In this document: piece after piece, positions 50,704-61,031 of the stretch
Layout of the letters: the number at the start of each line of letters is the position of its first letter
Position numbering within the stretch: position 1 is the stretch's first letter
Assembly (NCBI RefSeq): GCF_900130045.1
Contig: NZ_FQXT01000003.1
Coordinates: forward strand, 620,001 to 684,000
Length of the DNA: 64,000 nucleotides
Reading direction: 5' to 3'
DNA from: Leeuwenhoekiella palythoae
GTDB lineage: Bacteria > Bacteroidota > Bacteroidia > Flavobacteriales > Flavobacteriaceae
Program-made: the position numbers and the translations under genes
The notes under the pieces: model-generated
What the model was told of the DNA's origin: nothing
What the model saw: the letters and a program-made list of their open reading frames with translations, nothing else
Databases searched by the model: none

Positions 50704-50965
50704 ATTAAACGATCAAAATTTACCGAGTCGCCGATTGTATTTGCGATCTAACAGGTTGAGACTGGAACACGTCTTTCTGAGATCCGTCGCAAGATTGGAA
50801 TCAGCGAGGCTACCTTTTACAATTGGAATAAAAAATACGATGGTCTAGGTGTCTCTGAACTGAGAAGGCTCAAAACTTGGAGGAGGAGAATGCTCAGCTT
50901 AAAAAGCTTGTAGCCGATTTAAGTCTTGACAAGCAGATTCTTCAGGATGTATTAAAAAAAGTTCT
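50704..50965 (+). pseudogene. IS3 orfA remnant (HTH part of transposase)
   Basis: The sequence reads KRSKFTESPIVFAI, a stop, then QVETGTRLSEIRRKIGISEATFYNWNKKYDG, written here in part. The expected start ATG has become ATT (50704-50706). A nonsense codon follows (TAA about 40 nt later), and a one-base change near 50875 shifts the frame before the leucine-zipper segment EEENAQLKKLVADL. The gene is therefore dead by three separate lesions. Confidence 0.8.
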
Positions 50966-51837
50966 GAGGCCGTCTCGAAAACGGGAGATGATCAGCACTA
51001 TTCGAATGGAATATAATATTTCCATCAACCGTTGTGTACGCCTAATATTGTTGCACAAAAGCGTTTTTTATTATATCCCTAAAGAACGTGGGGATGAATT
51101 GATGCGCATGAGAATGAAAGAAATAGCAGCAACACGGGTACGCTATGGGTATTTGAGGATCTATATCCTACTTCGCTGGGAAGGCTTTATGGATAATAAT
51201 AAACGCGTTTATAGCGTGTATTGCGAAGAAGGTTTAAATCTCAGGTCTAAGAGGTCTAAAAGAAGTCGGTGTGGAGCCCATAGACAACTGTTCCCAGTGA
51301 TGCCTCTAGTTTACATGAGTGCTGGCGTATGGTCCCGAAAGCTTTCGGGATTGTAACAGATCAGCTCTACGATGGAAGCCGTTTTTAGAGCCTTAACTGT
51401 AGTGGATAATTCTAGTCGTAAATGTTTAGCAATATAGAGGAAAATCTCTTAAAGGAATTGATGTTGTTAGGGTGATGGATAATTTAGTTTCTGGCGCAAG
51501 AGTTTATCCTAAATGCATAAAAGTAGATAATGGAAGTGAATTTATCAGTAAAGTATTGGATAAATGGGCTTATGAAAGTAATGTGGAATTATACTTCTCA
51601 AGACCAGAAAAGCCTACTGATAATCCCTTTATAGAAAGCTTCAATGGATCTTTCAGAGATGAATGTTTAAATACGAACTGGTTCTTCTCTTTGGAAGATG
51701 CTCAAGAAAAGTTCGATATTTGGAGGGAAGACTATAACGGGTTTAGACCACACAACTCATTGGGTGACATGTCACCCAATGAGTACATTAAAATCAATGA
51801 AAATAGCCCAGATTCTCTAGTTATGACCAGTACCTAA
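50950..51837 (+). pseudogene. IS3 orfB remnant (DDE transposase), split and with hairpin insertion
   Basis: The 5' part (to about 51300) gives HTH_21-type sequence (MEYNISINRCVRLILLHKSV, ATRVRYGYLRIYILLRWEGF). The 3' part, 51472-51837, gives an intact rve end with CIKVDNGSEFISKVL (second catalytic Asp) and NPFIESFNGSFRDECLN (catalytic Glu). Between them, where related transposases have W-x-M-D-F with the first catalytic Asp, the DNA instead has the 18-bp palindrome TCCCGAAAGCTTTCGGGA (51333-51350), with nonsense codons after it. The reading frame also changes just before this point. The enzyme cannot be active. Confidence 0.8.
51333..51350. repeat. 18-bp palindrome inserted in transposase, same core as the dispersed element
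   Basis: TCCCGAAAGCTTTCGGGA is perfectly self-complementary and matches the palindromic core of the intergenic element at 19806 (one base different) and 40836 (two bases different). Flanks read GTATGG before and TTGTAACAGATCAG after, which join to normal transposase sequence if the palindrome is removed and three bases are restored. Confidence 0.65.
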
Positions 51838-52626: not shown

Positions 52627-53211
52627 CTACAAATTTGAATTTTTATTTGGCTTAGCTACAGTATCATCAGAACTAGAAGTAGGCCAACCTTTTATTCCCT
52701 TTAAAATTTTTTTATCGATGCTTTGATGATCGGGTCCGTGTAATACAGACATATCACCTGTAGTTTCTAAAATCACGGCATACACTTCTTTAAAATTTAA
52801 TGCGTTGGCCTCTCTCAATTTAGCAATAAGGTCATCTTCACCAACATTGGTTTTCTTTAAATTTTCGTAGAAAATCTCTCCTTGATACATTAATACCACA
52901 GGATCGTTAGATATTAAATGTTGCATCGCTTTCGATTTTCGCCTTATCCACGAAAAAATACTCTGAAAAGCCACAATACAAGCGAGCGCAATTGTCCCCT
53001 TAACTAGTGATTGATTTGTATTTAAAACAATTGAGGCGAGTACAGAACCAATTGCTATGGTCGCAGCAAAATCAAAACTCGACATTTTGGCAAATGTACG
53101 CAGTCCATTGATACGCGTAATCACAATCATCACAGTAAAAATAGAAATTACTGACAGTACCACTTTGATTATTGTAGTCTCTGAAACAACAAGCCAATTT
53201 TCCATATTCAT
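52627..53211 (-). CDS. DUF421 (YetF/YcaP-like) membrane protein
   Basis: Three membrane helices (residues about 12-80) are followed by a cytoplasmic DUF421 domain: PVVLMYQGEIFYENLKKTNV, EDDLIAKLREANALNFKEVYAVILETTGD, MSVL. The motif TFAKMSSFDFAATIAIGSVLA in the helical part is strongly conserved in the family. The function is not known; relatives are stress-induced in Bacillus. It faces the alkB gene tail to tail and is divergent from the biosynthetic operon beginning at 53385, with 173 bp between. Confidence 0.9.
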   Translation of the reverse strand: MNMENWLVVSETTIIKVVLSVISIFTVMIVITRINGLRTFAKMSSFDFAATIAIGSVLASIVLNTNQSLVKGTIALACIVAFQSIFSWIRRKSKAMQHLISNDPVVLMYQGEIFYENLKKTNVGEDDLIAKLREANALNFKEVYAVILETTGDMSVLHGPDHQSIDKKILKGIKGWPTSSSDDTVAKPNKNSNL

Positions 53212-53384: not shown

Positions 53385-54362
53385 ATGTACACGCAATTGC
53401 CCACACCGCCCCTACGTCGAATTGAAAAATCCTCAGTGCTTGATACTATCGGAAACACTCCACTCATACATCTCAAGCGACTGTCTTCTATTACAGGTCG
53501 TGAAGTTTACGCTAAAATGGAAATGGCCAATCCTGGTGGCAGTATTAAAGATCGTACTAGTTTAGCAATAGTTGAAGAAGGAATTCGCAAAGGTCATTTT
53601 ACAAAAGATACTACCTTGATTGAGAGTAGTAGCGGAAATATGGCTGTAGGTTTGGCACAAGTATGCTGTTATTATAACATTCCTCTAATTATCGTAGTAG
53701 ATCCAAAAGCCAATCCGCATACATTGAAGATATTAAACGCGTATGGGGCTAAAATTAATAATGTACAAAAACCTATTGCTAATGGCGGCTATCTGGGGGC
53801 ACGACTTGCTCGAATTCAGGAGTTACTTCTGGAAATCCCGAATTCGGTATGGACGAATCAATATCAAAATGAATCCAATCCGAAAGCGCATCATCGTACG
53901 ATGCGAGAAATATATCAAGAGCTACCGGAAGTAGATTATGTTTTCGCCGCAACCAGCACTTGCGGTACCCTGATGGGGTGTGCCAATTACATTCAAGCGC
54001 ACGGACTGAATACAAAGATGATTGCGGTAGATGCGGTCGGAAGCGTTCTTTTTGGTCATAAACCTCAAGAACGTCATATTCCAGGCCATGGTGCAGGACT
54101 ACCCTCCCATTTTTTGAGAAGAGAAGCTATTGAAAGTGCGTGTCATATCTCAGATATGGAATGTGTTGAAGGATGTCATAAGCTTTTAGATACCGAAGGC
54201 ATTCTTGCCGGCGGTTCTTCAGGAGCAGTCTTAAGTGCCTTTTTAAAATTACAGCAGCAACTGCCTGAGAATAGTAAAAGCGTATTAATTCTTTGCGATC
54301 GAGGAGAGCGTTATCTTGATACGCTTTATAATCAAAACTGGGTTCAAAGTCATCTAAAATAA
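53385..54362 (+). CDS. SbnA-like PLP enzyme (N-(2-amino-2-carboxyethyl)-glutamate synthase type)
   Basis: This is a cysteine-synthase-fold PLP enzyme of 325 residues, the length of SbnA. The PLP lysine is K55 in NPGGSIKDR, the substrate loop ESSSGNMAVGLAQV replaces the TSGNTG of true cysteine synthases, and the phosphate-binding loop is GGSSGAVLSA. SbnA joins O-phosphoserine and glutamate to give ACEGA, the first step to L-2,3-diaminopropionate in staphyloferrin B synthesis. The Ser/Asn/Met loop and the gene context, not next to serine acetyltransferase, favour SbnA over CysK. The next gene overlaps its stop by 1 nt. It is the first gene of a six-gene operon. Confidence 0.8.
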   Translation: MYTQLPTPPLRRIEKSSVLDTIGNTPLIHLKRLSSITGREVYAKMEMANPGGSIKDRTSLAIVEEGIRKGHFTKDTTLIESSSGNMAVGLAQVCCYYNIPLIIVVDPKANPHTLKILNAYGAKINNVQKPIANGGYLGARLARIQELLLEIPNSVWTNQYQNESNPKAHHRTMREIYQELPEVDYVFAATSTCGTLMGCANYIQAHGLNTKMIAVDAVGSVLFGHKPQERHIPGHGAGLPSHFLRREAIESACHISDMECVEGCHKLLDTEGILAGGSSGAVLSAFLKLQQQLPENSKSVLILCDRGERYLDTLYNQNWVQSHLK

Positions 54363-56125
54363 TGGAGTTCGCTGATTTTCACATAGGAATCATAGGTTTA
54401 GGACCTAAAGGCTTTTATGGATTTGAAAGGCTCGTAGCTGAACTTGATCGTTGCGATAATTGTAGTGCTATAACTATTCATATGTTCAACGAAACTGAAA
54501 ATTTTGCAAGTGGGTGGATCTATGATCCTAATCAGCCCGAATATCTTTTGATGAACTATCCCAACAAATATATTTCTTGTAGTCCATCAAATGCCTTGCA
54601 ACCGCTTATCCCTATTCAATCTTTTAGTGATTGGTTAAGTTCAACGTATAATCTCCCTAAAGAGCAAGTTGATTCACAGGTAGCTCCTAGAGCAGTAGTG
54701 GGAAGGTATTTACAGTATTATTTTGAACGTATTCTTAGCGCTGCACGTATTAAAATTAATATTCAACTACACACTACTTGTGTCACTGATATCCTGAAAG
54801 AAACAGAGGGTTATAAATTGCTGACAGAAAACACTTGTTGCAGGGATATACATTTTCAATCGCTTTTAATTACAACAGGCCACAGCCCTGCAATTCAAAG
54901 CTGTAAGCAGCAAAAGAAAGAATCACAATGCTATATCCCCTTTGTCTATCCACTTTGCGAAAACCTTAATCCTATTCCCCCTCAATCCACCGTGTTGTGT
55001 AAGGGTATGGGACTTACAGCCATAGATGCCATTCTTGAGTTGACTGAAGGGCGTCGAGGGGTATTTAAAAAAAATACATCAGGGGCTTTCGATTATTTAA
55101 AATCTGGACATGAGCCGGCATTGATAATTGCATATTCACGTTCTGGTATTCCTATTGTACCAAGAGGGGATCAAGCAGATATGCTAAATTCAACTAGTCA
55201 TTTTCTAAAAAATAAGATCGATTCAATTTTAAATTCGCATACTCGTGTTGATTTTGAGAGGGACATACTGCCTTGGATCAAACTAGACATTGAATCAGCG
55301 TATTATCAGATGCTTTTTAAAATGTATGGGTTTGAGTATACACCTTCTGATGTAGCACACTTTAACACAGCAAAAACTGATTTTCATAGATTGAATTTGG
55401 CCATAGCTCCCTTTAAGGCAGATGAACTCCTCTACCCCGATGCACATACCAATCTAGACTACGCTAATTCACCTGAAAACTATTGGAATTTTTGGATTGA
55501 AGAATTAAATCATGCGCAAAGTCCGTGGGTAGCTGCAGCAAGTGCGTGGAGGAGTCTTTCTAAAGAGTTCAATAGACTTTACCAAACAGCGCTTCTAACT
55601 TCTAAATCAAGAAAACGGTTTCAAGATACTTATTTCGGACTTTTCAACCGGATTGCATATGGGCCTCCAATTGAAAATATTAAAAAAATGCTCGCCCTGC
55701 ATCAGGCCGGAATTCTCAATTTTTCATTTGCAAGACATCCGAGTACAGTATTTACCAAACGTGGGTGGACGGTTATATTAAATGATCGTAAGCAGGATGC
55801 AGACTTTATGATTGATGCACGAATACCGCGGAAATTCTCCAAATCATCCGCAATACTTTTTAACGGAAATAGCACGACCTCTTTGTTCTCTTCCCCTCAA
55901 GAGCAAGATTGGATAAATTTACACTGTACCATTGAAGGGCACCCAATTTCATCTACCGGAGCCATAGAAAAAAACATCGTTTTATATGGTACACCCACAG
56001 AACATATACTATTTGATAATGACTCGCTTTCTAGAGCACATAACGATACGTCAAGTGCCTGGGCGCGTAACACTGTAAAAAACGTTCAAGAAATCAAAAA
56101 TTACAACCTTACTTATGAATCCTAA
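54362..56125 (+). CDS. FAD/NAD(P)-binding protein (NAD_binding_9 type)
   Basis: This is a large flavoprotein-like enzyme of 587 residues starting with a Rossmann loop IGIIGLGPKGFYGFERLVAEL, as in the FAD/NAD(P)-binding domain often found in HI0933-like and lysine/ornithine monooxygenase-like groups. A second nucleotide-binding stretch appears around VLCKGMGLTAIDAILEL. The rest is family-specific, including a region with EYTPSDVAHFNTAKTDF. It starts 1 nt inside the SbnA-like gene, and its end overlaps the decarboxylase by 11 nt, so the three enzymes are co-translated. It may oxidise the SbnA product or its decarboxylated form, in place of the SbnB dehydrogenase that is missing here (inference). 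Confidence 0.7.
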   Translation: MEFADFHIGIIGLGPKGFYGFERLVAELDRCDNCSAITIHMFNETENFASGWIYDPNQPEYLLMNYPNKYISCSPSNALQPLIPIQSFSDWLSSTYNLPKEQVDSQVAPRAVVGRYLQYYFERILSAARIKINIQLHTTCVTDILKETEGYKLLTENTCCRDIHFQSLLITTGHSPAIQSCKQQKKESQCYIPFVYPLCENLNPIPPQSTVLCKGMGLTAIDAILELTEGRRGVFKKNTSGAFDYLKSGHEPALIIAYSRSGIPIVPRGDQADMLNSTSHFLKNKIDSILNSHTRVDFERDILPWIKLDIESAYYQMLFKMYGFEYTPSDVAHFNTAKTDFHRLNLAIAPFKADELLYPDAHTNLDYANSPENYWNFWIEELNHAQSPWVAAASAWRSLSKEFNRLYQTALLTSKSRKRFQDTYFGLFNRIAYGPPIENIKKMLALHQAGILNFSFARHPSTVFTKRGWTVILNDRKQDADFMIDARIPRKFSKSSAILFNGNSTTSLFSSPQEQDWINLHCTIEGHPISSTGAIEKNIVLYGTPTEHILFDNDSLSRAHNDTSSAWARNTVKNVQEIKNYNLTYES

Positions 56126-57542
56126 TTTACCTGCACTAACTCCTATTACTTCTCAATGGATGCATCAACTTATAGGCAATTTTGACCTTCTAGAGCACCT
56201 CTTAGAGGCATATGGTTCGCCAATAAATCTGCATCATTTAAAAGCATTTCAAGAAAATATAGAAGAGTATCAGAAAATTTTAGATACCTATCAGATCAAG
56301 TATCAATTGTTTTTTGCCAGAAAAGCAAATAAATTTAAGAATCTCATCCCTGCCGCAGCCCAAATGAATATAGGTATTGATACCGCCAGCTACCCCGAAC
56401 TTCAACAATGTTTAGATCTTAATATCAGCTCAGACAAACTTATTTCTACAGCTGCCATTAAAAACAAAAAATTGTTACAAACTGCTATTGAGCAAGAGGT
56501 TTTACTTATCATAGATAATCAAGATGAATTCGATCAAGTTCTGGCGCTCTCTACTCAATTTAATAAAAAAGTAAAAATTGGTATTCGCATTTCAGGATTT
56601 GATTTTCAAGGTTCTCAATTAAAAAGTCGTTTCGGGTTTGATATCACAGCCGTTACTCAATTTATAGAACGTTACTTTAAAGATGCTACAGTTTTAAGCA
56701 AAATTCGTTTAGAAGGTTTTCATTTTCATTTAGATGGTTATAGTACCGCTCAACGTGGAACAGCGCTTCATCAAACCTTAGATCTTATCGAAATATTGAA
56801 ACCTCTTGAATTACCTATTTCTTTTATTGATATAGGTGGAGGAATATTGATGAACTACCTGCAATCTCAACAAGAATGGGACTCATTTCAACACGTACTA
56901 AAACAAGCAGTCTTAGAACAGCATCCTTCAATTACTTACAATAACGACGGTCTAGGTTTTACTATGCGCAACGGGGAACTTGAAGGACATTTGCAAACGT
57001 ACCCCTATTACAATGAGAATACTAAGGCTAATTTTCTCAAAGAAATTTTGGAAACGCCTAATCAAAATAATAAAACTGTTGTTCAACGACTACAAGCCAA
57101 TAGTATTGAATTACGTCTAGAACCGGGGCGTAGTTTACTGGATCAAGTAGGAATTACCGTAGCCCGTGTAGCGCATCGCAAAATAGATGCAGAAGGAAAT
57201 CACCTTATAGGTTTAGAAATGAATATGTCCCAATTAAAAAGTTCAAGTGCCGATTTTCTTTTAGATCCTTTTGTAAGCTATAAACATCAAAAATCTAATG
57301 CTGAACCTGTTCCTGTATATTTTACAGGAGCCTATTGTCTGGAGCGGGATATTTTATTGAAACGCAAAATCATGTTACCACAGCTTCCGGAAATTGGAGA
57401 TGCAGTCCTATTTGTGAATACCGCTGGTTATATGATGCATTTCTTTGAAACTGAAGCCCATTTGTTTGAGCGTGCTCAAAATTTAAGCATTGCTGAGTAC
57501 CAAGAGGATTATCAATTTGAGAATTTTGATCAGGAATATTAG
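56115..57542 (+). CDS. PLP-dependent decarboxylase, Y4yA-like (Orn/Lys/DAP decarboxylase fold)
   Basis: This is a fold-type III PLP enzyme of 475 residues. The PLP lysine is K70 in FFARKANKF (YAVKAN in diaminopimelate decarboxylase), a conserved GFHFHLDGYS follows on the barrel, SFIDIGGGILM gives the phosphate-binding Gly-rich loop, EPGRSLLDQ is a second phosphate loop, and GAYCLERD brings the active-site Cys. An extra N-terminal segment makes it longer than LysA, which matches the Y4yA-type group and resembles the SbnH position in the staphyloferrin B pathway. It overlaps the flavoprotein gene by 11 nt. The substrate is probably an amino acid or opine-like intermediate made by the SbnA-like enzyme (inference). 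Confidence 0.78.
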   Translation: MNPNLPALTPITSQWMHQLIGNFDLLEHLLEAYGSPINLHHLKAFQENIEEYQKILDTYQIKYQLFFARKANKFKNLIPAAAQMNIGIDTASYPELQQCLDLNISSDKLISTAAIKNKKLLQTAIEQEVLLIIDNQDEFDQVLALSTQFNKKVKIGIRISGFDFQGSQLKSRFGFDITAVTQFIERYFKDATVLSKIRLEGFHFHLDGYSTAQRGTALHQTLDLIEILKPLELPISFIDIGGGILMNYLQSQQEWDSFQHVLKQAVLEQHPSITYNNDGLGFTMRNGELEGHLQTYPYYNENTKANFLKEILETPNQNNKTVVQRLQANSIELRLEPGRSLLDQVGITVARVAHRKIDAEGNHLIGLEMNMSQLKSSSADFLLDPFVSYKHQKSNAEPVPVYFTGAYCLERDILLKRKIMLPQLPEIGDAVLFVNTAGYMMHFFETEAHLFERAQNLSIAEYQEDYQFENFDQEY

Positions 57543-57544
57543 AC

Positions 57545-57814
57545 ATGGACATGGAAACAATTGTAGGAACGACAGCTAGCATTTTTACGACAATAGCAGT
57601 ACTCCCTCAGGTGTATAAAGTGTTACGCACTAAATCTGCCAAAGACATATCCTTACCAATGTTTATGTGCCTATTAATAGGTGTAGGGTCTTGGACCATT
57701 TATGGCATTCTCAAAGAAGATTGGCCTATTATTATTACCAATGGGCTTTCTTTTCTATTTAATGGAATGATGGTTTACACCAAATTGAAATATGATAAAT
57801 CGTATACAAGATGA
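57545..57814 (+). CDS. SemiSWEET (PQ-loop) family transporter
   Basis: This 89-residue protein has three membrane helices and the signature LPQVYKVLRTKSAKDIS (PQ-loop) and a second conserved Trp/Gly helix (GVGSWTIYGI). SemiSWEETs form dimers that carry small sugars or related solutes across the inner membrane. It lies 3 nt after the decarboxylase and overlaps the following membrane protein by 4 nt. In this setting it may move the pathway's product or a precursor rather than a nutrient sugar (inference). Confidence 0.9.
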   Translation: MDMETIVGTTASIFTTIAVLPQVYKVLRTKSAKDISLPMFMCLLIGVGSWTIYGILKEDWPIIITNGLSFLFNGMMVYTKLKYDKSYTR

Positions 57815-58356
57815 AAAACTTTATCAGCACAAACAAACGTGCTCTAATGGGTGGTTTGATCACCTTTGTATTTCTTTTAGTGGCAGTTTTTGTATTAGGA
57901 AACATCAGCGGTTATGAAGGTAAAGTGCTTATTGAAGCCTCTCTTTCTGGTATTAATATGCTGTGCAATACCATCGTTTTGGGCTCAGCTACCATTTTAA
58001 CCTTATTGCTCACGCTCTTGGGTATCAGCACAAGTTCAAGATCTACATTAAAGAAAGCACATTATAAGCAGGTTGCGAATATTGCAAAATTAGATACTGT
58101 ACTATTTATTTTTGCCTTAGTGCTTTTTCAGATTTTTAATATTCCAATTACTGAATCTGAACAAGTACCCACCTTTTGGTTTAAATATATTTATTGGGCA
58201 ACACTCTTTTCATCCTCTTTATTAAGCGGTATGATGGTTACTGTTGTGCTCCTACTCTATACCACTGTCACCAATATTATAACGATTGTAGGTTTGGGTA
58301 AGGATCATTACCTGATATCTGAGGAGGAAATTGAAGAAGAAGAAAAACAAACCTAG
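57811..58356 (+). CDS. Unrecognised four-helix membrane protein of the operon
   Basis: This 181-residue protein has four hydrophobic segments (GGLITFVFLLVAVFVLG, MLCNTIVLGSATILTLLLTLLG, TVLFIFALVLFQIFN, SSLLSGMMVTVVLLLYTTVTNI) and a very acidic C-terminus (SEEEIEEEEK). No catalytic motif or family is recognised. It begins inside the SemiSWEET gene (4-nt overlap), and the next gene follows after 2 nt, so it is an integral part of the operon. It could be a regulator or an accessory channel subunit. Its conservation with the same neighbours elsewhere is not known to me. Confidence 0.7.
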   Translation: MKNFISTNKRALMGGLITFVFLLVAVFVLGNISGYEGKVLIEASLSGINMLCNTIVLGSATILTLLLTLLGISTSSRSTLKKAHYKQVANIAKLDTVLFIFALVLFQIFNIPITESEQVPTFWFKYIYWATLFSSSLLSGMMVTVVLLLYTTVTNIITIVGLGKDHYLISEEEIEEEEKQT

Positions 58357-58358
58357 TT

Positions 58359-58766
58359 ATGAATATCGTCTCCTTATTTTTGATCACCTTAGCAAGTACT
58401 ACAGTAATGACTTTATTCAGCTATGGCTTTAGTTGTTTAGTGCATCAAAATTTAGTGGAACCTTATTGGCTAAACCGACTGCTTTTTAAAAGAGAGGGCT
58501 GGCGTTCCCCTTACGGATGGATCACCCATTATATTACCGGAATTGGTTTTCTATACTTAATCGATCTGCTTAGGAACTATTTTTCGTTTCCTCAGTATTT
58601 AGAAATTTTAATATTCGGAGGGTTAGAAGGTGGTTTAGGAATCTTGATGTGGATACTTCTTTTTTGGTTTTCCAAGCCTTCAGAAACTTTTGACAGACAA
58701 CGTTATTACCTCAATTTATTGATCGCACATATTTTTTTCGCAGCTACTGCCTTAGCACTTTTATAA
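58359..58766 (+). CDS. Second unrecognised membrane protein of the operon
   Basis: This is a 135-residue protein with four hydrophobic segments. A short soluble loop after the first helix carries the conserved-looking motif LVEPYWLNRLLFKREGWRSPYG, here split at 20 residues: LVEPYWLNRLLFKREGWRS followed by PYGWITHYITG, with His, Trp and Arg residues that could be functional. The last helix ends the protein without a tail. No family is recognised. It is the last of the six co-directional, almost gap-free genes; about 125 bp then separate it from the catalase gene, with no clear terminator. Confidence 0.65.
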   Translation: MNIVSLFLITLASTTVMTLFSYGFSCLVHQNLVEPYWLNRLLFKREGWRSPYGWITHYITGIGFLYLIDLLRNYFSFPQYLEILIFGGLEGGLGILMWILLFWFSKPSETFDRQRYYLNLLIAHIFFAATALALL

Positions 58767-58892
58767 ATACGATTGCAAGCTTATGATTTAAGATAATTTT
58801 AATTAATTAAAAGGCATACTTTAACCTTTTAGATAGCATATGTTTTGAAGCAACTGTCTAATTTTAAACAGTTACTAACCAATATTGATGCT

Positions 58893-61031
58893 ATGAGTAA
58901 AAAGCAAACTAGCGAGTTTAAATCAAAAAAAATTGATCAACTCGAGCAATCCACCAAGGATTATCAAGATCAGGTCATGACCACCAACCAAGGGCTTAAA
59001 GTCAATGACACAAACAATTCACTAAAGGCCGGAGAACGTGGCCCTACGCTACTGGAAGATTTCTTATTACGCGAAAAAATCACCAGTTTTGATCATGAGC
59101 GAATTCCAGAACGAATTGTTCATGCACGCGGTAGCGGAGCTCACGGGTATTTTGAACTCTATAAAAGCATAGAGAAGTATACCAAGGCCGGACTTTTTAC
59201 CGATACTAAACGCAAAACTCCAGTATTTGTAAGATTCTCTACCGTCGCAGGCTCTAAGGGTTCTCCAGACTTAGCTCGCGATGTACGAGGTTTTGCTGTA
59301 AAATTTTATACTGATGAAGGAACTTGGGATTTAGTTGGAAATAATATGCCCATTTTCTTTATTCAGGATGCGATGAAATTTCCTGACTTAATTCATTCGG
59401 TAAAACCAGAACCCAATAATGAAATTCCTCAAGCAGCTTCGGCTCACGATACGTTTTATGATTTTGTTTCTAGGGCGACTGAAACCTTACACAATCATAT
59501 TTGGGTAATGAGTGATCGGGCCATTCCTCGAAGTTATCGTATGATGGAAGGTTTTGGTATTCATACGTTTAGATTTATTAATAAAGACGGTAAATCTCAT
59601 TTTGTGAAGTTTCATTGGAAACCAGTGCTAGGAGTTCATTCCGTAACTTGGGATGAAGCCGTTAAAATTAATGGTGCTGATTCAGATTTTCACCGTCGAG
59701 ATCTTTGGGAAGCTATCGAGGCCGGTCAATATCCTGAATGGGAGTTTGGAATTCAAGTGGTTCCGGAAGAAGATGAGCACAAATATGATTTTGACCTGCT
59801 CGACCCTACCAAATTGATTCCAGAAGAATTGGTTCCGGTAGAAATAATTGGGAAAATGACTTTAAATAAAAATCCTGAAAATTTCTTTGCAGAAACCGAG
59901 CAAGTAGCTTTTCTTCCTGGTCATATAATTCCGGGTATAGATTTTACTAATGATCCGTTATTACAAGGACGTTTGTTCTCATACAGAGACACCCAATTAT
60001 CGCGACTCGGAAGTCCTAATTTTCATCAAATTCCCATCAATCGTTCGGTAGCACCACATCATAACAATCAAAGGGATGGACATATGCAAACCGAAATCCC
60101 TAAAGGTCAAACTGCGTACTTCCCTAATTCCCTAAGTATGGGTTGTCCGCATTTGGCTAAAATGGCTGAAGGCGGATACACACACCACCAAGAGCGTATT
60201 GATGCGCACAAGATACGAGGACGCAGTGCTAGCTTTAGCGATCACTACTCTCAACCTGCTCTTTTCTACCGCAGTTTATCTTCTTGGGAGCAACAACACG
60301 TAGCTGATGCCTATACTTTTGAACTTGGTAAATGCAATCATAAACATATTCAAGAGCGTATGTTATGGATCATCAACCAGATTGACCAAGAATTGGCCAA
60401 GAAAGTTGCTGACGGCCTTGGATTGACCGTACCGAAGAAAATAGATGAACCCGTCAATCAAGCGATTGGTGCAGATGCAGAAATTGAAAAATTTCAACCT
60501 AATTCTAAAAAACAATATGTAGATAAAGATTCAAGTTTAAGTCAAGCCAATACTAAATTTGACAGTATTGCAACACGACAAATAGCATTTTTAGCTGCAG
60601 ACCAGTTCGATATGAAACGTTTTGAACCTTACAAAACTGCTTTAGAGCAAGCTGGAGCAATGGTTAAAATAATAGCACCGCACGGAGGTTCAATAACTTG
60701 TGATCAAGGTATGAAACACGAGGTCGATGCGGCCATTTTAACAACAGAAAGTGTGCTTTTTGACGCCGTATTAATTGCCGGAGGTCAAAAAGCAGTAAAA
60801 AGCTTGCAAGCAAAAGCTAAATTTCAAAAGTTTGTCAATGAAGCTTTGAAACATTGTAAAGCTGTTGCTGCTTTGGGCGAAGGCGAAGCACTTCTAAAAC
60901 ACAGTGCATATAAGCACTATGAAAAAGATAAAGCCGTATTCATAGATGCTAAGCCAAAAGCATTTATCGATGCAATAGCGCAACACAGAAACTGGGAGCG
61001 TAAAGATAAGGTTGAAGGTATTGCCGTTTAG
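58893..61031 (+). CDS. katE: Large-subunit monofunctional catalase (KatE/HPII type)
   Basis: This haem catalase of about 712 residues converts H2O2 to water and oxygen. The distal His is in [15 protein letters not shown], the distal Asn region is [16 protein letters not shown], and the proximal Tyr is in [22 protein letters not shown] (given in part). The extra C-terminal 150 residues form a DJ-1/class I amidotransferase-like flavodoxin fold ([29 protein letters not shown]), as in clade 2 catalases. I prefer the ATG at 58893 (MSKKQTSEF) to the TTG at 58845. A strong hairpin follows. It is probably induced in stationary phase or under oxidative stress. Confidence 0.96.

Follow-up and report, generated by a model that had tools for sequence, protein, structure and literature searches.

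The six-gene operon of Leeuwenhoekiella palythoae described here consists of two modules: an enzyme core, encoding an SbnA-like synthase, a flavoprotein and a Y4yA-family decarboxylase, and a dispensable set encoding a SemiSWEET and two further membrane proteins. Genes 1-3 are a unit by conservation; the six genes together are not. Judged from sequence, the chances are about even that the trio represents a self-contained cassette that would make a small N-oxygenated aminoethyl amino acid, with the membrane genes as passengers. The following features were assigned in the window, i.e. the whole 64,000-nucleotide stretch of DNA that was analysed.

52627-53211, - strand: YetF/DUF421 membrane protein, divergent recurrent neighbour (PF04239)
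53385-54362, + strand: SbnA-like PLP beta-replacement enzyme, core gene 1 (325 aa; TIGR03945)
54362-56125, + strand: FzmM/CreE-like flavin N-hydroxylase homologue, core gene 2 (587 aa; Pfam NAD_binding_9)
56115-57542, + strand: Y4yA-family fold-III PLP decarboxylase, core gene 3 (475 aa; PF02784)
57545-57814, + strand: SemiSWEET, associated, non-core (89 aa; NF037968)
57811-58356, + strand: 181-aa membrane protein, associated, non-core (no Pfam family)
58359-58766, + strand: 135-aa DUF2938-like membrane protein, associated, non-core (DUF2938 in homologues)
58845-61031, + strand: long-subunit catalase, recurrent neighbour (PF00199, PF06628, PF18011)

All six open reading frames of the operon (positions 53385-58766) lie on the + strand. 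The recomputed contacts between consecutive genes, from first to last, are an overlap of 1 nt, an overlap of 11 nt, a gap of 2 nt, an overlap of 4 nt and a gap of 2 nt, in agreement with the same-strand operon of the preliminary description. The long catalase gene starts 78 nt past the last of the six genes on the same strand. A scan for promoters and terminators gave no excess over shuffled sequence. When the three core proteins were searched against PHROGs, SbnA matched one nameless family and the other two matched nothing.

Conservation of the operon and its surroundings

The trio was found complete and in order in 27 genomes from five families of the phylum: all 16 genomes with a strong flavoprotein match among the 397 family genomes searched, 6 more from a search of 395 genomes of the phylum and 5 more from the genus. 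It was also observed on Sulfitobacter plasmids, in both of the records examined. In three genomes, sbnA is fused to the flavoprotein gene, representing two events on which both trees agree. The gene-order search proposed in the preliminary description showed genes 1-3 in the same order in many genomes and not only in that of the window. Only weaker flavoprotein matches were present in 29 family genomes, of which four (L050, L052, L053 and L054) had their surroundings examined and the other 25 were left out; SbnA and Y4yA were absent within 16-19.5 kb of these four matches. Similarly, no SbnA or Y4yA was found within the 16-19.5 kb examined around the flavoprotein paralogue of the window's own genome (L051). 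Three genomes of the phylum search were also left out of the trio count: G398, whose flavoprotein-like gene is not accompanied by the trio, and G758 and G716, where no trio is visible on contigs of 5 and 10 kb.

The SemiSWEET passed the NF037968 cut-off (99.3 bits versus 80). The 135-aa protein of the window matched DUF2938 at a sub-cut-off level (E 0.011), and 10 of its 17 aligned homologues matched this family, the best with E 5.4e-7. For the 181-aa protein, only a sub-cut-off match to MASE10 (E 0.049) was obtained, and none of 17 homologues matched any Pfam family at 0.01. Homologues of the 135- and 181-aa proteins occur in 39 and 64 of the 397 family genomes, respectively, two of the latter being weak and stop-interrupted. 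Among the eight trio genomes of the genus, the SemiSWEET gene and the 181-aa gene each adjoin the trio in four and the 135-aa gene in six (and also in G087); all three lie beside it in four, and the other four have one or none of them.

These counts bear on the earlier proposal that the six genes form one functional unit, with the SemiSWEET and both membrane proteins as exporters of the product. Such a unit would be in keeping with the tight gene contacts in the window and with the identical six-gene sets of G144, G329 and G774, but the comparison of trio genomes across the genus largely refutes it; the proposal was rejected, and we give it hardly any credence. Within the 19.5-kb stretches examined, the trio stands without any of the three membrane genes in G778, with catalase in G780 and with the 135-aa gene in G777. 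In G773 and G780 the distance from the trio to the 181-aa gene exceeds 100 kb, and no match to this gene was obtained in G777 and G778. The preliminary description had further asked whether the two membrane proteins always co-occur. At 20 loci of the 181-aa gene away from trio loci (one of these genomes, G309, has the trio elsewhere) Y4yA was never present. SemiSWEET was present at 8 of these loci and YetF at 12; an SbnA-like and a flavoprotein-like protein were each matched once, weakly, at below 30% identity. Given that the three membrane genes are dispensable beside the trio, their role in export is not supported, and they look like mere neighbours or passengers.

Two other neighbours are recurrent. 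A YetF/DUF421 gene stands divergent beside sbnA in all eight trio genomes of the genus, as well as in G087, and a long catalase gene lies near the trio in 10 of the 27 trio genomes. A crude estimate of the catalase linkage, which assumes one long catalase per 4.2 Mb and a 20-kb window and in which lineages were collapsed by eye, gave p about 2e-5 for 3 independent lineages of 12. The gene surroundings suggest a link with oxidative or light stress, and in some genomes with metals. Stress genes do not accompany the trio everywhere: a catalase gene is close by in only those 10 genomes.

Predicted properties of the core enzymes

The SbnA-like protein of the window scored 405.3 bits against TIGR03945, above the NCBIfam equivalog cut-off of 349.95, and 197-220 bits against the cysteine synthase A and CysK/M models, under the cut-offs of those models. 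Its closest solved relative is SbnA 5d84. The PLP lysine (K55 in the window's protein) and the O-phosphoserine residues R140, Y160 and S191 (R132, Y152 and S185 of SbnA) are kept in 15 of 15 trio rows of the alignment. The TIGR03945 score and the conserved O-phosphoserine residues rule out a plain cysteine synthase, and the original SbnA-like assignment stands. The reported absence of SbnB and of a siderophore synthetase was likewise borne out: none of 22 genomes exceeded the SbnB (TIGR03944) cut-off of 326.9 bits, 20 of them giving lower scores (at most 102.8 bits, in G595, followed by 92.4 in G080; the window's own genome reached 34.6), and IucA/IucC (PF04183) was absent from all 16 trio genomes at E 0.001, E. 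coli and H. volcanii controls being positive.

The second protein, previously left as an unspecified flavoprotein, is a homologue of FzmM/CreE-type amino-acid N-hydroxylases by both profile and model match, a relationship that had been overlooked. The profile match to 8cp2 (FzmM) has an E value of 1.7e-60 (positions 7-560 of 596). The AlphaFold model (mean pLDDT 85) aligned with 8cp2 and 8cp5 with Z scores of 31.8-32.1 and rmsd values of 3.0-3.2 over 550-551 residues, the next protein reaching Z 18.8, and contains the full-length FzmM/CreE fold, including the large helical domain. The flavin-side Asn62 of FzmM is kept in 17 of 17 homologues. The aspartate-holding set comprises Arg13, Arg276, Asn413, Arg416 and Arg577, of which Arg276 (in an insertion) and Arg577 (past the aligned stretch) could not be placed; Arg13 is replaced by Lys in all 17 homologues, and Asn413 and Arg416 are kept in none. 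At the sulfate site, Arg266 is kept in 15 of 17, Arg409 in 9 of 17 and Arg412 in 0 of 17. With none of the three alignable aspartate-holding residues conserved, the protein may use another substrate than FzmM or even catalyse another reaction.

The same changes count against a scheme modelled on the one proposed for alanosine, with free aspartate or glutamate as the flavoprotein's substrate and nitrosuccinate-type nitrogen passed on to the other enzymes. In the accessible parts of the published accounts, FzmM and CreE act on aspartate as N-hydroxylases, and a diaminopropionate route is encoded together with CreE/CreD homologues in the alanosine cluster. The operon of the window has no CreD-type lyase, and the scheme appears highly improbable.

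The third protein carries the Orn/DAP/Arg decarboxylase N-domain PF02784, and its annotated relatives are named Y4yA family. Residues K70, H205, GGG241-243, E336, R339, C408 and Y439 are invariant in 21 of 21 aligned rows; we take the conserved motifs to be the PLP lysine, the stacking His, GGG, EPGR and the catalytic Cys. Of 94 records of Y4yA plasmid loci, 11 were examined, 2 of them unannotated; a PALP-type gene adjoins Y4yA or sits at most 2 kb away in all nine annotated loci. Several of these loci contain other third enzymes together with iron ABC genes, IucA/IucC or exporters. By analogy, the SbnA-like and Y4yA pair looks like an ethylenediamine builder, the third place being held in the window by a putative N-oxygenase. 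A literature search that left most subscription journals outside its range returned nothing on Y4yA decarboxylase, and nothing on an EDDS gene cluster linked to zinc.

A proposed pathway and its alternatives

From the observed families, conservation, fusions and residue patterns, we infer the substrates, step order, product and role of the cassette as follows. SbnA would couple O-phosphoserine to an amino acid through the latter's amine (the known enzyme uses glutamate), giving an N-(2-amino-2-carboxyethyl)-amino acid. Y4yA would remove the carboxylate of the serine-derived half, leaving an aminoethyl (ethylenediamine) unit. The flavoprotein, with NADPH, FAD and O2, would oxygenate a nitrogen of the scaffold and would fill the place of the ornithine-cyclodeaminase- or opine-dehydrogenase-type gene in related clusters. 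The predicted product is a small aminoethyl-amino acid in N-hydroxy, oxime or nitro form; in this genus the cassette lies beside oxidative-stress genes. Relatives in which Y4yA is paired with an SbnA/CysK-like enzyme, and also rhizobactin, suggest the ethylenediamine-type product of the preliminary description; given that the flavoprotein is an N-hydroxylase homologue, nitrogen oxidation is expected and not merely a decarboxylated ACEGA.

The sbnA-flavoprotein fusion favours a flavoprotein step adjacent to that of SbnA, which fits poorly with an action after decarboxylation. A next step of this kind would be provided if the flavoprotein replaced SbnB, cleaving the SbnA adduct oxidatively to 2,3-diaminopropionate, from which Y4yA would form ethylenediamine or a derivative, and the lack of any above-cut-off SbnB in the 22 genomes fits such a replacement. 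FzmM-type enzymes, however, hydroxylate nitrogen, and the accessible portions of the literature describe no oxidative C-N cleavage by this fold; we consider the replacement unlikely.

Metal-related genes near the trio raise another alternative, namely that the trio makes an ethylenediamine metal ligand, an aminopolycarboxylate metallophore of the rhizobactin/EDDS/EDHA kind, with the flavoprotein merely in the dehydrogenase's place. These genes include a VIT-family transporter (presumably for iron/manganese) about 210 nt downstream of the trio in G042 and, in G777, a heavy-metal P-type ATPase some 1.3 kb from y4yA. G087 has a TonB receptor and PepSY_TM downstream, and in G664 the trio is followed by ECF sigma and FecR genes. 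TonB receptors lie at a distance of about 4 kb in G329 and G080, and an ORF resembling them at about 6 kb in G301. Sugar uptake is a further function of TonB receptors with carboxypeptidase-like domains, which counts against a metallophore. SbnA/CysK-like and Y4yA relatives adjoin iron ABC transporters, IucA/IucC or MATE exporters, and rhizobactin has an ethylenediamine unit in its structure, according to the accessible part of its description. By contrast, IucA/IucC is lacking in all 16 genomes, and the modelled flavoprotein fold is of the N-hydroxylase type and not that of a C-N dehydrogenase. Among the selected neighbours that were annotated, no metal-related gene recurs beside the trio from genome to genome or from lineage to lineage, and no exporter or importer travels with the cassette. 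PF02423, sought as the ornithine-cyclodeaminase-type partner, passed its threshold only in G080 among the 16 trio genomes, at a site over 400 kb distant from the cassette; in G301 the match stayed below the threshold. Taken together, a metallophore is a tentative possibility, held with less than even expectation.

Returning to the N-oxygenated aminoethyl amino acid, a bolder extension, which we regard as doubtful, pictures a cassette mobile among families of a single phylum (probably Bacteroidota) and transferred to plasmids of Alphaproteobacteria. Its product would be a hitherto unreported N-oxygenated amino acid of ethylenediamine type, in N-hydroxy, oxime or nitro form, that would protect cells against light or oxidative stress and not scavenge iron. 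No combination of sbnA, an N-hydroxylase and y4yA was present among the literature matches listed (titles and abstract starts, with most subscription journals outside the search), which is weak evidence for the novelty of the enzyme combination. The proposed pathway predicts a product, open to experiment, for a cassette found repeatedly within a phylum and, if that product is N-oxygenated, a new small metabolite perhaps tied to stress or metals.

Comparison with known systems

The y4yA clusters of rhizobia, agrobacteria, Rhodococcus and mycobacteria resemble the trio in the adjacency of an SbnA/CysK-like enzyme and a Y4yA decarboxylase, and several include MATE/MFS, iron ABC or IucA/IucC genes. 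Their third gene is ornithine-cyclodeaminase- or opine-dehydrogenase-like, whereas that of the window encodes the flavoprotein. This suggests a general ethylenediamine-building pair whose third enzyme (cyclodeaminase, opine-dehydrogenase or N-oxygenase) is swapped. The SbnA/SbnB route to 2,3-diaminopropionate, as in staphyloferrin B and NRPS clusters of Bacteroidetes, shares a true SbnA-family first enzyme with the phosphoserine residues; here, in contrast, there is no SbnB above the cut-off and no IucA/IucC, and an N-hydroxylase homologue and a decarboxylase come next.

Rhizobactin, EDDS and EDHA are carboxylate metallophores whose clusters include an ornithine-cyclodeaminase- or opine-dehydrogenase-type partner enzyme; no such gene is present in the window's operon. 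The likeness would lie in the ethylenediamine core expected from SbnA-like and decarboxylase chemistry. We know of no Y4yA in alanosine biosynthesis. In the accessible part of its description, that pathway has diaminopropionate and the CreE homologue AlnM in one cluster and uses the carrier protein AlnI, the lyase AlnN and AlnG, which the window's operon lacks.

The L-aspartate N-hydroxylases FzmM, CreE and PcxL (8cp2, 8cp5) share with the flavoprotein a nearly full-length fold and sequence match, with Asn62 and Arg266 kept. They differ in that identity is 21-22%, that the gene is here accompanied by sbnA and y4yA, and that the operon is without a lyase. The trio extends FzmM/CreE-type N-oxygenases past the actinobacterial pathways named in the accessible portions of the literature.

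Genes of the window operon

Recomputation of the reading frames in the window returned all six genes with the strand and contacts exactly as the preliminary description had given them, followed after 78 nt by a long-subunit catalase gene:

53385-54362, + strand, SbnA-like synthase
54362-56125, + strand, flavoprotein
56115-57542, + strand, Y4yA-type decarboxylase
57545-57814, + strand, SemiSWEET
57811-58356, + strand, 181-aa membrane protein
58359-58766, + strand, 135-aa membrane protein
58845-61031, + strand, long-subunit catalase

A YetF/DUF421 gene lies divergently upstream of the set. The first three products are a PALP enzyme scoring over the SbnA equivalog cut-off, an NAD_binding_9 flavoprotein and an Orn/DAP/Arg-type decarboxylase. 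The SemiSWEET scored over its family cut-off. Neither of the other two membrane proteins of the window gave a Pfam match over cut-off; the 135-aa protein is DUF2938-like as judged by its homologues (10 of 17 members match DUF2938), and none of the 17 homologues of the 181-aa protein matched a Pfam family. By eye, two ORFs of 159 and 121 aa at 50877-51837, upstream of the AlkB-type gene, resemble pieces of an IS3-type transposase.

Selective O-phosphoserine binding by SbnA is attributed, in excerpts of PMC12414870, to Arg132, Tyr152 and Ser185. The equivalent residues of the window's enzyme (R140, Y160 and S191) were kept in all 15 aligned rows from the three-gene trio, fused rows being outside the alignment, and the full set is not retained in the rows from rhizobia, mycobacteria and Sandaracinus; score and residues together uphold the earlier assignment as an SbnA-like synthase. 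The catalytic residues of the decarboxylase were kept in 21 of 21 rows.

Distribution of the trio and of the membrane genes

A flavoprotein query of 397 genomes of the family (Flavobacteriaceae) gave matches in 45, including strong matches in 16 genomes of 13 genera (best E 2.5e-53 or lower; next 3.1e-24). In all 16 (15 loci read plus the window), SbnA and Y4yA genes flanked the flavoprotein gene in unchanged order. Five stretches around more distant flavoprotein paralogues, one of them in the window's own genome, contained neither SbnA nor Y4yA. Across the phylum (395 genomes, 30 with matches), six more complete trios were found in four other families (genomes G664, G595, G557, G738, G655 and G544); G398 held a distant flavoprotein only, and no trio was visible in G758 or G716, where both loci are on short contigs. 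Within the genus, 8 of 13 genomes searched had a Y4yA gene, and the full trio was present in all five newly seen among them, one of which (G778) is listed with 9% contamination. The trio, present in 27 genomes (16 of the family, 6 of other families and 5 further of the genus), is a real, widely conserved three-gene cassette. The same three genes occurred on both plasmid records read of the five matching from Sulfitobacter, and a Tsukamurella plasmid carries PALP and decarboxylase genes together with an annotated fragment in a flavoprotein-like stretch. On the Sulfitobacter plasmids (loci L055 and L184) the trio sits beside PAS-HTH regulator, sulfotransferase and TRAP transporter genes.

The sbnA and flavoprotein genes form a single ORF in G301 (940 aa), G080 (968 aa) and G664 (952 aa), and parsimony counts two fusion events whether the flavoprotein or the Y4yA tree is used. 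On both of these quick trees, G094, from the window's family, clustered with G738, from another family (SH-aLRT 98 and 93), a possible sign of transfer. The three proteins co-vary in pairwise identity (Spearman 0.62-0.78 over 23 rows, uncorrected for shared ancestry). No description of this enzyme combination was found in the literature searched, whose coverage was incomplete.

The conserved order does not extend to all six genes, which had been proposed to act as one functional unit. The trio is accompanied by the SemiSWEET, 181-aa, 135-aa and catalase genes in the window's genome (G000), G144, G329 and G774, by the 135-aa and catalase genes in G773, by the catalase gene in G780, by the 135-aa gene in G777 and by none of the four in the stretch fetched from G778. 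The 181-aa gene lies more than 100 kb from the trio in G773 and G780, and a genome search did not find it in G777 or G778. Of the 397 family genomes, 64 carry it (two copies being weak and interrupted by stops) and 39 carry the 135-aa gene. The 181-aa protein family, found at window 57811-58356 and at loci L065-L094 and L160-L179, has a mean column identity of 71% over 17 members. At 20 fetched 181-aa loci away from the trio, YetF (12), SemiSWEET (8) and the 135-aa gene (6) were observed, and Y4yA at none. Given these loci and the variable layouts in the genus, the membrane genes form a separate, loose neighbourhood of their own, which the trio adjoins in part of the genus. The six-gene unit was thus drawn too wide, and export by the SemiSWEET and two membrane proteins is unsupported, since these genes are separable from the trio.

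The flavoprotein and the neighbours of the trio

A 17-row profile of trio flavoproteins had one near-full-length relative in the PDB, 8cp2 (E 1.7e-60), which is the L-aspartate N-hydroxylase of Streptomyces sp. V2, of the FzmM/CreE kind (excerpts of PMC10404684). An AlphaFold model of the flavoprotein (mean pLDDT 85) aligned with this structure over 550-551 residues (Z 31.8-32.1, rmsd 3.0-3.2; next protein Z 18.8). The same excerpts have aspartate held by Arg13, Arg276, Asn413, Arg416 and Arg577, and sulfates in that region by Arg266, Arg409, Arg412, Asn413 and Arg416. Among 17 trio flavoproteins, the Arg13 position is always Lys, no row retains Asn413, Arg416 or Arg412, and Arg409 is retained in 9 and Arg266 in 15 (Lys in the other 2), a comparison that leaves out Arg276 and Arg577, which were not placeable in the alignment. 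Asn62, the side chain of which moves in front of the flavin, is kept in 17 of 17. Given that the three aspartate-holding residues placed in the alignment are changed and that the fold and Asn62 are kept, the modelled protein resembles a working N-hydroxylase by fold and flavin side, with a substrate that probably differs from aspartate. The preliminary description had rightly called this key enzyme a flavoprotein; its N-hydroxylase kinship went unrecognised there.

Selected genes were annotated around the trio loci. Of the 22 genomes examined first, 15 have a long catalase, and in 7 it lies near the trio; it is also near the trio in 3 of 5 further genus genomes, which gives 10 of 27 in total. 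Its placement varies: it lies downstream in the window's clade and also in G172, there with two genes in between, is divergent in G129, and in G094 precedes the trio by 54 nt in the same orientation. Other neighbours suggestive of stress are genes for an AlkB-type oxygenase (window), a photolyase and UvrA-like protein (G309), translesion polymerases (G094) and a phytochrome kinase (G655). In G100 (L044:3582-8740) the gene divergent to the trio encodes a MerR-B12-binding regulator, which we take to be LitR/CarH-like, and adjoins carotenoid desaturase and phytoene-synthase-like genes. A role in stress is our favoured guess. Genes related to metals lie near other trios, which speaks against that guess and for its main rival, a metallophore role. 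They comprise a VIT-family transporter gene just downstream of the trio in G042 (L045:12370-13128), a gene for a heavy-metal P-type ATPase at ∼1.3 kb in G777 (L201:3581-6001), TonB with PepSY_TM in G087, and ECF sigma and FecR in G664; G329 and G080 have TonB receptors at a distance of ∼4 kb, and G301 has an ORF resembling these. The first two, in G042 and G777, may point to metals but were not seen again among the neighbours annotated. Other neighbours seem unrelated, namely an asparaginase (G557), an Na/H exchanger (G595) and glycoside hydrolases (G778). Type IX secretion domains also occur in genes neighbouring trio loci, which fits the presumed phylum, Bacteroidota.

Comparison with known clusters

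The reported absence of SbnB and a siderophore synthetase was borne out: SbnB was over the cut-off of 327 bits in none of 22 trio genomes, and IucA/IucC was found in none of 16 (control search positive in E. coli and H. volcanii). Weaker SbnB matches occurred in 20 of the 22, the best being 103 bits in G595 and 92 bits in G080, so a distant SbnB-like enzyme may be present in these two. The ornithine cyclodeaminase family was over cut-off in 1 of 16 trio genomes only (G080), where over 400 kb separate it from the trio.

Y4yA matches were present in 94 plasmid records, of which 11 were opened, 2 of them unannotated; in all 9 annotated records a PALP-type gene adjoins y4yA or lies within 2 kb. 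The third partner is a flavoprotein in the two Sulfitobacter records (a fragment in Tsukamurella), an ornithine cyclodeaminase in Rhizobium, M. avium, A. tumefaciens, R. opacus and A. vitis (MATE exporter in 4 of these 5 loci, iron ABC genes in 2), and, in S. fredii NGR234, an octopine/nopaline dehydrogenase accompanied by IucA/IucC and MFS genes. At loci L057, L058, L059, L180, L181 and L183, Y4yA and a cysteine-synthase-like enzyme are encoded together with a partner of the ornithine-cyclodeaminase or opine-dehydrogenase type, and several of these loci carry MATE and iron ABC genes. These plasmid clusters, which come from rhizobia, agrobacteria, Rhodococcus and M. avium, probably specify aminopolycarboxylate metallophores. 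EDDS and EDHA are named in PMC9248904 (reference list) and in excerpts of PMC8914351, and in rhizobactin an ethylenediamine group is joined to alanine, lysine and malic acid (excerpts of PMC7676072), a structure that would be consistent with the NGR234 enzyme set.

By analogy, the SbnA/CysK-like enzyme and Y4yA would constitute an ethylenediamine-building pair. This PALP-type and Y4yA pair is common to the plasmid clusters and the trio; the third enzyme is mostly a cyclodeaminase or dehydrogenase in the former, whereas in the trio it is the flavoprotein, a putative N-oxygenase that would occupy the same place. To our knowledge, the nearest case combining diaminopropionate with a CreE homologue is alanosine biosynthesis. 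That combination is described in excerpts of PMC7347517 and PMC11705231.
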